DNA of 64,000 nucleotides from Bacteroidota bacterium. Its GTDB lineage: Bacteria > Bacteroidota > Ignavibacteria > Ignavibacteriales > SURF-24. How positions within the stretch are numbered: the first letter of the stretch is position 1; every line of letters begins with the position of its first letter. The stretch covers positions 1 through 64,000 of the forward strand of contig JAUZPB010000011.1 of NCBI GenBank assembly GCA_030706145.1, given 5' to 3'. Positions 36,286 to 40,689 of the stretch are shown in pieces. The translations under genes and the position numbers were made by a program. The notes beneath the pieces are model-generated. The model was not told where the DNA came from and searched no databases. It saw only the letters and a program-made list of their open reading frames with translations.

Positions 36286-36834
36286 ATGAAACGATTCATG
36301 AAATCAATCTGTCATACGCTTGAAGACAAAAACGTATCGATTCCATTTTATACTCTTTTAGGTGTATCGGTTTTTATACTTATAAAGCGTCTTATCTCAA
36401 ATAAGAATCGACATGGGCAGGACAGTTTCAGAGCCGGTTCCACCCAATTTGATAATAAGCAATTAGGTACTTTAAGTCCCACAAATGCACAACTAGAAGG
36501 AAATGACATCCAAGAAGATACAAAATCAAGAGAAGACGAAGGGCAGCTGAAAAGCAACAACGGAGCTGTAACCTTACTAGAAGATACAGTCCCTGATAAT
36601 CCGCAGGCGCATAATGATGAACTAGTTGAAGAAGAGACTTTACTACAAGATGATTTTCAAATTGAAAGTAATGAAATTCCGCAGGATTCGATCATAGAAG
36701 TAATAAACGAAGTAACAGATCCTGCTCTTGCAAACAAGGGGCAATGCAAAGCAATAACAAAGAAAGGTATCAGATGTCGAAATAAGGCCGATAGTAGTGG
36801 CTACTGTTTTCAGCATAGAATGCATCCCCAATAA
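36286..36834 (+). CDS. Membrane-anchored protein with C-terminal Cys/His motif (DUF5763-like)
   Basis: The 182-residue protein has one membrane segment near the N-terminus (FYTLLGVSVFILIKRLI), a long acidic, Asn/Gln/Glu-rich linker, and a compact C-terminal motif CKAITKKGIRCRNKA...GYCFQH. Its C-x8-C-x10-C-x2-H spacing (positions in that motif) suggests a small metal-binding knuckle of the DUF5763 type. The ATG at 36286 follows GGAG and is preferred to a longer frame. It is the first plus-strand gene after 36 kb of minus-strand genes and lies 183 bases before a KAP-type NTPase. Function unknown. Confidence 0.65.
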   Translation: MKRFMKSICHTLEDKNVSIPFYTLLGVSVFILIKRLISNKNRHGQDSFRAGSTQFDNKQLGTLSPTNAQLEGNDIQEDTKSREDEGQLKSNNGAVTLLEDTVPDNPQAHNDELVEEETLLQDDFQIESNEIPQDSIIEVINEVTDPALANKGQCKAITKKGIRCRNKADSSGYCFQHRMHPQ

Positions 36835-37017
36835 TTCTTTCCTTTTTGGGTAAAAATGCCCATTTATTCGCCTTTTTCACTCCTTCTGCAAAAAAAAGAT
36901 TATAAAAAATAATAATTGACAAAATTGGGAAAATATTAGAAGTTTGTACAAGGAAAGTACCATACTTACTTTCAGGGGTTAATAATGCCTTGTTGAAGCG
37001 GATAAACATATAGAAAA

Positions 37018-39393
37018 ATGAATAAAGTGCAGACTAAAGAAGAGAAATTTGAAAATATACAGACGGTTAGCGTGAAAGGCCAGCATCTTAACGGTGGACC
37101 AGAAATTAGTGTGTACAAGACGGATGCCCCTTTAGAGAATCCTGAAGCAGATAAGTTTGACAGATATGATTTTTCCACAAAAATTGCTAAGGCAATCCTA
37201 GGCAGGGGAAATTCTGCTTCAATTGTAATGGGCTTATACGGTTCCTTCGGCACCGGAAAGACAACGGTATTAAATTTTATTAAAAGAGAACTATCGCAAA
37301 ATTCCCGTTGCCTTGTAATGAGTTTTAATGCTTGGCAATATCAGAATGATGAACAGATAGTCAGGGCATTTTTTGAAAATTTATCACAACTTTTCATTCA
37401 GGCCGGATTCGAAAATTCTGATGGTTCTATTGGAAATTTATTGGGCATTTATTCTAATCTGCTTTTACCAGGTAAATACAACATAGACTCTTCTATACCA
37501 TCTAGCAATAGTAAGCATAGCAAGAATACACAAGCTAAAACAATTTATGAAATAGGTCCGGTTAGAGAAAAGATTGAACAAATACTTAAGAATATATGCA
37601 GAAAAGTTATCATTCAAATTGATGATCTCGACAAAATTGACAGATCCCAGCTAAAGACTCTCCTTAGGCTTATTAAGTTAAATGCCAATTTTCCATATAC
37701 TATATTTATTCTGGCCTTTGATGAAGTAGTGGTTGCAAGAATTCTGGATGAAGAAAACGAGAATAAAAAAGAAAGAGGATCAGCTTTAAAGGAAAAGCTA
37801 CTTGATACAATAGTTCAAGTCCCCATAAAGCTTCCACACTTTAGTAGATTAAAGCTTGAAAAGTCATTTATTGAATGCATAAACGAGTTTTTATCAGAAA
37901 ATGGAATAACTCTTCTATTAGAAAAGTACAGAAAATTCCTTCGTACATTTAAGCATGGTTTTGCCTTAAGGGTAAAGGACATAAGAATGATAAAGCAATT
38001 TAGAAATGTCCTTTCTTTTACGCTTCCGATGCTTAAAGGTGAAGTTGATATAGTAGATTTTATTTTATTAGAAGCTTTAAGATATTTTTATCCCTCTGTT
38101 TATGAAGCAATTCAAAGTCAGCCCAGTATTTTCCAGGATTTGGAATCAACTAATACTAAACACTCAGAAAGTGCCAGGAAACTGGCTCAGAAGATTTTAG
38201 ATAAAGCTTTTGAAGATCTGCTTTTTGAAGAAAGAGCTGCTGTTAAATATTTGTTAGTTGTTCTATTCCCTATCCTTAGGAATATCTTTGAGCAGGATAC
38301 AACTGTTTTAATAAGCCAAGGAGCTGGGAAAGATGAATATGCAGCAAAAAGAAATTTTGGATTATTTTTTAATACTTCCGATTCTCAAAGCAGCAAAGCT
38401 GAGACAATTTTGGAGAATTTTTACAATCTCCTGGAATATGAAGACAGTGCAATAATAAAGTCCCAAATTGAAAAGATAAATAAGGATTTAGGAACAGTCG
38501 AGTTTATCTCTTCACTTAAAGCCAGGTTAGAGGCATTCAATGAATCGACCTCCACAGTGCTAATACAAGCACTTGGTCAAGCCGGGGAATGTTTCAGTAA
38601 TCCAGACACTCTATTTTCATTTTCAACTGTTTTTGATCACCCTGCGACTCTTATAAGAGAGCTGTTAAAGAAAATTCCAGATAAAACAAAACGTTTTACT
38701 ATAGCAAAACAACTGCTTAATGAATGTGAATCGGTGAGCTTTGCTTTTGAATGCTATAGGTGGATGTGCAGTTTAGAAAATGAGATGATGGAAGATAGGA
38801 TATTTGGACCACTTTTAGAACAAGAACTTGGAAGATATGTATCTGAAAGAATTGCAGAGTTTTCGAAAGAAGGGCCCATATATAAAAGGGCTCCCGAAGA
38901 ATCTCCTTTTTTACTTTCTGTCTGGGCCTATCTTTCAGGCAAAGACACAACAGGGGAATATTTAAAGAAGACATTTGATGAAGATAAAGACAATATATTT
39001 TTATTTCTCAAAACTTATTTGCCTGAAGACTTTTCAAGTAGTGACTTAAACAAAGATTCTTTTTTAGGCTTAGATCAGTTTAATGAAATTGGTAAACTAA
39101 TTGAGCCAGAAAAAGCATTTACTTCATTACTTGATAGCTTGGGTGAAGATTTTCTTCTTGGTGATAGAAAGGCTGCTCAAATCGGCTTAATACATTCTTC
39201 CACAAATGTACCCATAGAGACTGACAATGATCAAATTGGATTAAAATTTGCCCAAATGTACAAATCATTTGGCTTCATACATTCTTCAAAATCAAATCAA
39301 AAAGACCAAGAGCAGTTCAGAAAAGAAGGACAAACTGATCAAAGAAGAAAAGTCTCTGTAGTAAAAAAAGGCATTTATCGTCCGATAGCCTAA
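37018..39393 (+). CDS. KAP-family P-loop NTPase
   Basis: The 791-residue protein has Walker A GSFGTGKT (residues 75-82), the KAP hallmark FNAWQYQ (about 103-109) and Walker B IIQIDDLDKID (about 198-208), followed by the FILAFDEVVVARIL sensor block. No convincing membrane helices are seen, whereas classical KAP proteins have them inserted in the NTPase domain. The C-terminal 450 residues are helical and unrecognised. KAP NTPases include phage-exclusion proteins such as PifA, so a defence role is possible but unproven. Its neighbour upstream is a membrane-anchored Cys/His protein. Confidence 0.82.
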   Translation: MNKVQTKEEKFENIQTVSVKGQHLNGGPEISVYKTDAPLENPEADKFDRYDFSTKIAKAILGRGNSASIVMGLYGSFGTGKTTVLNFIKRELSQNSRCLVMSFNAWQYQNDEQIVRAFFENLSQLFIQAGFENSDGSIGNLLGIYSNLLLPGKYNIDSSIPSSNSKHSKNTQAKTIYEIGPVREKIEQILKNICRKVIIQIDDLDKIDRSQLKTLLRLIKLNANFPYTIFILAFDEVVVARILDEENENKKERGSALKEKLLDTIVQVPIKLPHFSRLKLEKSFIECINEFLSENGITLLLEKYRKFLRTFKHGFALRVKDIRMIKQFRNVLSFTLPMLKGEVDIVDFILLEALRYFYPSVYEAIQSQPSIFQDLESTNTKHSESARKLAQKILDKAFEDLLFEERAAVKYLLVVLFPILRNIFEQDTTVLISQGAGKDEYAAKRNFGLFFNTSDSQSSKAETILENFYNLLEYEDSAIIKSQIEKINKDLGTVEFISSLKARLEAFNESTSTVLIQALGQAGECFSNPDTLFSFSTVFDHPATLIRELLKKIPDKTKRFTIAKQLLNECESVSFAFECYRWMCSLENEMMEDRIFGPLLEQELGRYVSERIAEFSKEGPIYKRAPEESPFLLSVWAYLSGKDTTGEYLKKTFDEDKDNIFLFLKTYLPEDFSSSDLNKDSFLGLDQFNEIGKLIEPEKAFTSLLDSLGEDFLLGDRKAAQIGLIHSSTNVPIETDNDQIGLKFAQMYKSFGFIHSSKSNQKDQEQFRKEGQTDQRRKVSVVKKGIYRPIA

Positions 39394-39422
39394 AAAGCAG
39401 AGAATTAAAAATTGTAATTTAT

Positions 39423-39456
39423 ATAGCACTTCGAGTGTTATAGTTTTGTTTTTTTT
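39423..39456 (+). terminator. Terminator after the KAP NTPase gene
   Basis: ATAGCACT (39423-39430) pairs with AGTGTTAT (39434-39441) around TCG, with one G-T pair, and a T-rich run follows (39444-39456). It separates the KAP gene from nagA. Confidence 0.75.
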
Positions 39457-39528: not shown

Positions 39529-40689
39529 ATGAACAAAAGACTAATAATTAAAAATTGCAACATTATCAATACAACTTCAGCAGATGACCAGAATGCAGAC
39601 ATACTTATTGAAGGTGGAGAAATAGAAGATATCAACAAAGGGATAGAATCAAAAGACTGCACAGAAATTGATTCAGAAGGAAGAATTGTGGTTCCAGGCT
39701 TTATAGAAGTTCATATTCAAGGAGCAGGAGGCTCTGATGTTCTTGATAACAGTAAAGAAGCCTTAGAGAATATCTCAAAGACATTAGCAAGGTTAGGAAC
39801 AACAACCTATCTTGGGACAACTGTCGTTAGACCACAAGAAGACAATAAACATTTAAGACTTGCAAGGCAACATGTAAATAAAGATTTAGGAGGGGCAAAA
39901 TTATTAGGATTCCATCTAGAAGGCCCGTTTATCAATCCTAAAAAGAAAGGTGGACTTGATCCAAATTCGATCTATGAACCAAGCCCAAAGGCACTTGATG
40001 AGATTTTAGATGTTCTGGGTGATACACTAAAAATGATGACAATAGCCCCAGAGGTTCCTGGGAACCTTGATTTAATAAAGCTGCTTGTTAAGAATAAAGT
40101 AATAGCATCATTTGCACATTCAGATGCAAATTATGAAGAGACAAAAGCAGGATTTGAAGCTGGCATTAGCCATGTAACTCATCTTTTCAATGCTATGCAA
40201 TCGCTCAGCCACAGAAGTCCAGGGCCGCTGGGGGCAATTTTTGAAAATGAAAAAATCACAGCTCAGCTAATTAGTGATGGTCATCATTTGCATCCTTCGG
40301 TAGTCAATCTTGCCTACAAATTACTTGGAAGTGAGAGATGTATTTGCATAACAGATGGAATGCAGGCGATGGGACTACCTGAAGGCAAATATCTTTACAA
40401 TGGCCGCGAATATATTTCCAAGTCAGGAGCAGCAAGATATCCAGATGGAACTCTAATAGGCTCCACAATGAGTTTAGGAAACATAGCTGTAAAATTCATG
40501 GAATTCACAAAATGCTCCTTCAAGACAGCAATGCAGACAATTACGACAAATCCTGCAAAACTCCTTGGAATTTATGATAAGAAGGGATCGGTTGACATTG
40601 GGAAAGATGCTGATCTGGTTCTTTTAGACAGTGATTACTCAGTGTACATGACAATAGTAAATGGGCAAATTGTTTACAAGAAGAAATAA
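39529..40689 (+). CDS. nagA: N-acetylglucosamine-6-phosphate deacetylase
   Basis: The 386-residue amidohydrolase has the family blocks FIEVHIQGAGG, LGFHLEGPFINPKKKG (metal-binding Glu), the histidines in SFAHSDANYEET and HVTHLFNAMQ, and the catalytic Asp in CITDGMQ. It removes the acetyl group from GlcNAc-6-phosphate, the first committed step of amino-sugar breakdown. AGGAATTAAA precedes the ATG. No nagB deaminase is in the window; the convergent SIS gene, permease and ROK kinase likely belong to the same use of amino sugars. Confidence 0.94.
   Translation: MNKRLIIKNCNIINTTSADDQNADILIEGGEIEDINKGIESKDCTEIDSEGRIVVPGFIEVHIQGAGGSDVLDNSKEALENISKTLARLGTTTYLGTTVVRPQEDNKHLRLARQHVNKDLGGAKLLGFHLEGPFINPKKKGGLDPNSIYEPSPKALDEILDVLGDTLKMMTIAPEVPGNLDLIKLLVKNKVIASFAHSDANYEETKAGFEAGISHVTHLFNAMQSLSHRSPGPLGAIFENEKITAQLISDGHHLHPSVVNLAYKLLGSERCICITDGMQAMGLPEGKYLYNGREYISKSGAARYPDGTLIGSTMSLGNIAVKFMEFTKCSFKTAMQTITTNPAKLLGIYDKKGSVDIGKDADLVLLDSDYSVYMTIVNGQIVYKKK

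Follow-up and report, generated by a model that had tools for sequence, protein, structure and literature searches.

A soluble PifA-like KAP NTPase and a single-pass membrane protein ending in a DUF5763 knuckle (hereafter the partner) are encoded as neighbours beside nagA in one Ignavibacteria family, and in this clade the distribution of constraint within the NTPase is inverted. The explanation that we consider best, held tentatively and with somewhat less than even confidence, is that a PifA-type NTPase has been repurposed in this family and is controlled at the membrane by the partner, which would act as a restrainer or positioner with its outer knuckle as the input. Little is understood of how PifA itself is retained at the membrane and set free, and a gene-linked natural partner would allow a direct test; the inverted constraint, seen in no other KAP pair examined, would mark the move of an immune-type protein into a fixed cellular role.

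The window is the whole 64,000-nucleotide stretch of DNA analysed. Its main genes left of 36.2 kb all lie on the minus strand, as the initial annotation had described, and the following features then occur on the plus strand:

36286–36834, plus strand: partner gene; 182 amino acids, single-pass, C-terminal DUF5763 knuckle (ORF, Pfam profile, alignment, structure model)
36334–36384, plus strand: partner membrane segment, residues 17–33, preceded by a conserved basic N-terminal segment (alignment, hydrophobicity)
36742–36819, plus strand: DUF5763 Cys/His knuckle, residues 153–178 (Pfam match; ordered in the model, block pLDDT 82–89)
36847–36862, plus strand: hairpin 3' of the partner gene (z −2.0 versus shuffled sequence)
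37018–39393, plus strand: soluble PifA-like KAP NTPase, 791 amino acids (Pfam, PADLOC, hydropathy, structure model)
37123–38052, plus strand: NTPase domain, residues 36–345, fast-evolving in the clade of the window and its relatives G003 and G004 (alignment, trees)
37240–37263, plus strand: Walker A GSFGTGKT, residues 75–82; F77 is W in 46/46 relatives (alignment)
37606–37626, plus strand: Walker B ending D202-D203, then L-D-K206; R206 in 46/46 relatives (alignment)
38515–39033, plus strand: C-terminal helical core, residues 500–672, the most conserved part within the clade (alignment, model)
39422–39456, plus strand: terminator-like hairpin and U-tract 3' of the KAP gene (sequence, folding versus shuffled sequence)
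39529–40689, plus strand: nagA orthologue, the constant neighbour of the pair (genome comparison)

The partner ATG is preceded by GGAG and aligns with the start of the same protein in both relatives, G003 and G004 (JAAXKQ010000004.1, Ignavibacteria bacterium isolate bin-C14); the window's own genome is G000. The protein had been described as single-pass with a C-terminal knuckle, and this was borne out by a DUF5763 match of 30.6 bits against a gathering cut-off of 26.3. The C-terminus follows the pattern C-x9-C-x9-C-x2-H, so that the residues of a Cys3His site are present and metal binding is putative. Between the membrane segment and the knuckle lies a long acidic linker that is predicted to be disordered; in the alignment of the three proteins this linker is hypervariable while the N-terminal segment and the knuckle are conserved. 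The structure prediction places a helix at residues 21–40 and has a mean pLDDT of 54.8, being poor except in the helices and the knuckle. Given the hairpin that follows the partner gene, the partner and KAP genes may be separate transcripts.

For the second gene, the assignment as a 791-residue KAP NTPase was confirmed by a KAP_NTPase (PF07693) match over residues 52–334 (E 4e-32, 112 bits versus a cut-off of 20), and the best PADLOC model was PifA (E 2e-52, residues 33–663). The structure model, with a mean pLDDT of 78.6, is good over the NTPase and also over most of the C-terminal helical part. Insertion of membrane segments into the NTPase domain is typical of KAP NTPases and not required. 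The window protein has no 19-residue stretch with a mean hydropathy of at least 1.7, i.e. no membrane segment, and in this respect the initial annotation was right; it was mistaken in treating the absence as unusual, as 85 of 98 KAP proteins examined by the same test, the window's included, lack an insertion (two of the 80 named loci yielded no KAP frame for this test). Where a terminator had been proposed, a 9 bp, A/U-rich hairpin with a U-tract does follow the gene, but its folding surpasses that of shuffled sequence only slightly (z −1.5), and a terminator scan did not list it.

Linkage of the two genes was surveyed in 96 genomes (one per species, the window's own included), five of which belong to the bacterial family of the window's genome. 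Full-length matches to both proteins occurred in the same three genomes, G000, G003 and G004, representing two genera; any KAP match was found in nine of the 96, most of them distant, and any partner match in seven, the remaining partner matches covering the knuckle, or the knuckle and linker, only. Three of the five family genomes have both genes adjacent beside nagA and two have neither; the proposal of an accessory pair conserved as neighbours thus held in 3/3 family genomes with KAP, and KAP is not a core gene. In all three, KAP immediately precedes nagA, the two sharing a strand with a gap of 135–212 bp, and the partner lies on the side of KAP away from nagA, co-directional with KAP in the window and divergent from it in G003 and G004; linkage persists despite a change of orientation. 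In G002 nagA adjoins an acyl-ligase gene, and KAP and partner are absent. In G001, from a sister genus, a 1031-residue TPR protein (L028:10151–13246) sits between nagA and the acyl-ligase gene, in the place of the pair. The ligase gene is on nagA's pair side in the other four family genomes and on another contig in G000, and this comparison of flanks indicates that the pair stayed together beside nagA while the far flank rearranged. Its presence beside nagA in two genera looks vertical, not mobile.

These data bear on two rival accounts of the locus. The first, that the genes are neighbours by descent only, owing to one ancestral insertion beside nagA and sharing no joint function, would fit the difference in orientation between the genera, the 181–210 bp between the genes, the hairpin after the partner gene and the hypervariability of the partner linker; we consider it improbable, as both genes are kept or lost together (three genomes with both, two with neither) although the nagA-side ligase gene has moved contig in G000, and as the N-terminal segment and knuckle of the partner remain conserved. 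The second would give KAP a housekeeping role in amino-sugar or envelope metabolism, linked to nagA. The constant position of KAP upstream of nagA agrees with this, as do the SIS-domain, MFS-transporter and ROK-kinase genes that follow nagA in the window, but the terminator-like hairpin separates KAP from nagA in the window and nagA occurs without KAP in two family genomes, making such a role very unlikely indeed. The rate of evolution is higher in KAP and partner than in nagA, the transporter and the ROK kinase.

A typical immune NTPase is expected to combine a conserved motor with a variable sensing part. The relatives of the window protein follow this pattern, with a conserved NTPase and a variable C-terminal part, whereas the window clade does the opposite. 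Residues and identities were compared between the window, G003 and G004 on the one hand and 46 relatives on the other, 47 KAP rows from the 80 loci being present in the structure alignment. Five residues (W77, R206, Y230, F261 and D462) are identical in 46/46 relatives and changed in all three clade members, and the window KAP alone also lacks G258 and K264, each present in 46/46 relatives; G80-K81-T82 of Walker A and D202-D203 of Walker B are kept in all three. Identity between the window and G003/G004 is 0.29–0.30 over the NTPase domain (residues 36–345) and 0.45–0.48 over the C-terminal core (residues 500–672); between G003 and G004 the values are 0.60 and 0.78, respectively. Among the other 46 proteins, by comparison, mean identity is 0.48 over the NTPase and 0.23 over the core, the NTPase being higher in all 1035 pairs and the core-to-NTPase ratio of identities peaking at 0.93. 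In an alignment built by another aligner with 54 other proteins, none of 1431 pairs reached a ratio of 1.

The relatives had been gathered by a pattern representing the Walker A region and hence were chosen for a normal Walker A, a selection that could inflate conservation of the motif itself but would not produce the low identity of the C-terminal cores; seven rows found by profile without the Walker A pattern were added in the second alignment with the same outcome. The bounds of the core were set after viewing the alignment, and plain halves (346–700 versus 36–345) also invert. The pattern rests on three genomes from two genera, which were monophyletic in both an NTPase and a C-terminal tree (support 98 and 99). 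Root-to-tip distances for the clade were 1.80–2.19 in the NTPase tree, versus a median of 0.87 for the others, and 2.12–2.24 versus 1.76 in the C-terminal tree, so that the NTPase domain of the clade evolves at about double the rate seen in relatives; both trees were made by a quick method, and in the NTPase tree long branches are flagged as meeting at the clade. As an argument against repurposing, a fast NTPase and a frozen C-terminus could follow from a relaxed need for ATP hydrolysis, with no new job involved. As a separate observation, a single in-frame stop breaks the KAP gene at locus L110:7959–10190 (Bacteroidetes MAG), which combines a canonical NTPase half with a C-terminal half that matches the C-terminal profile of the window clade.

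Discussion of KAP NTPases has centred mostly on phage exclusion and defence, and the initial annotation pointed out that phage-exclusion proteins occur among them. The main rival to our preferred reading is an anti-phage abortive-infection system, in which KAP would act as PifA does and the partner would recruit it to the membrane or sense phage entry; we judge it unlikely though plausible. The PifA model gives the best PADLOC match, PADLOC matches being by nature matches to defence proteins, and among solved structures the nearest fold is that of RdrA from the RADAR defence system (Z 17.1, rmsd 4.5 over 277 residues); the KAP family is patchy, occurring in 37/395 genomes of the phylum; and on viral contigs the same knuckle is found in exported lipoproteins, one with an integrase as its neighbour, which would fit an anti-phage function in the envelope. 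The flanks of PifA-like soluble KAP relatives moreover include genes of restriction, Gabija and DRT type: 148 proteins from them (at most two each side, none above 900 amino acids, sampled in locus order from 50 usable loci up to a size limit) matched 220 PADLOC families, including GajB, a DRT helicase and Type I methyltransferases. We claim no measured defence enrichment from these flanks, because PADLOC output counts families, not proteins, and there was no matched control.

Against this, none of the 25 neighbours of the window pair matched PADLOC at 1e-10 (seven have other Pfam domains), which led us to reject a defence island around it; the suggested check for nearby defence genes was negative for the window itself, such genes being found in the flanks of relatives. 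The place beside nagA is fixed in two genera, and the conserved part in the clade is the C-terminal region, where an arms race would be expected to bring variation. The defence-type label agrees with the PifA match, but the protein has evolved unlike its KAP relatives. There was likewise no sign that phages, plasmids or viruses carry the pair: KAP had no match among 50,697 phage records, its profile found no relative in viral contigs, the partner had no plasmid match and plasmid KAP proteins are distant (best 28% identity). In our preferred reading, that of a repurposed PifA-type NTPase, the inverted constraint, the fixed place beside nagA and the lack of defence matches among the 25 neighbours together favour a fixed role with the C-terminal domain bound to a constant partner, the obvious candidate being the membrane protein linked to it.

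PifA of plasmid F, which excludes T7, is likewise a soluble KAP NTPase (741 versus 791 amino acids), but it has only 28% identity to the window protein over 189 residues and 32% over 73, it forms a very long branch (2.5) far from the window protein in a tree of rows of at least 550 amino acids where its placement is unsure, and its neighbour in F is the repressor gene pifC rather than a DUF5763 membrane protein. The likeness to RdrA is confined to the NTPase part, at 14% identity; RdrA works with RdrB, a deaminase, and no RdrB was seen among the neighbours of the window KAP. FxsA is polytopic and is not known to carry a knuckle, which sets it apart from the partner. It does offer a parallel for the proposed control, as a membrane protein thought to govern a KAP NTPase through its location: FxsA is reported to hold PifA sequestered at the membrane (PMC8125068). 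A second source counts PifA among abortive-infection proteins, with membrane depolarisation as its presumed mode of action, and considers that immunity may not have been the primary reason for its evolution (PMC8594841). QatA of qatABCD, like the window KAP, is described as a KAP NTPase with a further C-terminal domain (PMC12424860); the window protein scores 61.5 bits against the NCBIfam QatA equivalog cut-off of 600, and no Qat model matched any of the 25 neighbours. Tmn, defined as a KAP NTPase with two transmembrane domains (PMC11846954), differs from the window KAP, which has no transmembrane segment.

How general the association with DUF5763 might be was assessed from other KAP loci. A search of genome contigs with the single protein gave no match, and relatives were then gathered with an alignment. 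A DUF5763 neighbour was found at 0/79 other named KAP loci from many phyla, the only one of the 80 with such a neighbour being L102, which is the G004 genome, and at 0/16 KAP loci from other genomes of the phylum; at L065 one unrelated Cys/His match lies near KAP. DUF5763 as a general KAP partner is ruled out by these counts, and as far as the sampled loci go the pair would be a family-level invention. The suggestion that the partner supplies a location that the NTPase lacks also loses ground, since most relatives have no membrane insertion and none of the 79 loci has such a partner, so that a KAP without insertion needs no partner as its explanation. Two genomes of one distant family have a soluble KAP in a constant, non-defence place (L075:6079–8253 and L076:6672–8780), the neighbours of which we take, from the starts of their proteins, to be ruvC-like and hemW-like genes. 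A C-terminal KGxYRP motif considered as the tag of a network was dropped, as of its two occurrences in the genome one lies in the pair itself and the other has S encoded in place of R.

No literature was found under the name DUF5763 (PF19067). The domain gave 22 matches in 21/294 genomes of the class, and the topology of the proteins was examined at 25 loci (the 22 matches and three further partner-match loci), 24 of which yielded a frame, two being the partner itself. A hydrophobic N-terminus at a cut-off of 2.0 was scored for 21 of the 22 other DUF5763 frames versus 11/39 control frames; the frame at L084 scored 1.88, below the cut-off, and L093, missed by the pattern, has an N-terminal hydrophobic stretch by eye. 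In several of the proteins a lipobox-like motif closes the signal. These exported proteins carry the same knuckle as the partner, mostly at the C-terminus; they have signal peptides or lipoboxes, whereas the partner has a signal-anchor-like segment, a long acidic linker and a KAP neighbour. Given the exported setting of DUF5763 elsewhere, the partner knuckle is probably periplasmic, facing outside the cytoplasm, and could not itself dock the NTPase. Lysine and arginine counts flanking the membrane segment, inner versus outer, are 6 versus 2 and 6 versus 3 in G003 and G004, favouring an N-inside orientation, and even in the window partner (4 versus 4). With the knuckle outside, only the conserved N-terminal segment of about 16 residues could meet a cytosolic NTPase. 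Overall, the conserved neighbourhood, the non-core KAP and the PifA match are supported, while a defence context in the window, mobility and docking through the knuckle are unsupported or weakened.

The mechanism that we infer, comprising topology, physical contact, sensed event and output, would run as follows. KAP would derive from the soluble PifA-like NTPases, a group with members located among defence genes in other bacteria; after repurposing, the ATP-binding core (Walker A and B) would have been kept, the NTPase domain would have drifted and the C-terminal helical domain would have come under constraint. The partner would be anchored in the inner membrane with its basic N-terminal segment inside and its knuckle outside, and the KAP C-terminal domain would dock on the inner segment, so that the partner could hold the NTPase at the membrane and restrain or position it, as FxsA reportedly does with PifA. 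The outer knuckle may then sense an event, possibly free nucleic acid or envelope damage, leading to release of the NTPase. A restraining or positioning role is preferred on account of what the PifA literature says of membrane action and of doubtful primary immunity (PMC8594841).

Two exported DNA/RNA non-specific endonucleases have a C-terminal DUF5763 knuckle, L013:1495–2433 (G022) and L014:1498–2391 (G081), which suggests a role of the knuckle in extracellular nucleic-acid handling. A fuller version of the proposal would have a domesticated defence-type KAP in which the motor has been loosened and the former sensor frozen onto the partner, with its outward-facing knuckle of nucleic-acid type, the two forming a transmembrane switch that reads periplasmic nucleic acid or an envelope breach and controls the ATPase; we put this forward as speculative and rather unlikely in its full form. 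DUF5763 lipoproteins were also observed on viral contigs at L196:3890–4373 and L197:3746–4225, outside the 22-frame count, that at L197 being near a phage-type integrase and a repressor-like gene, and at L032:6002–6493 (G004), where the tail is a PBCV basic adaptor domain. All three share a C-terminal GPRGGxYYINSxGxKxYIKK-like tail, and it is possible that they are prophage-borne surface-exclusion proteins. The G004 lipoprotein is adjoined by L032:4979–5983, which has no Pfam match and the start of which, we presume, resembles SIR2.
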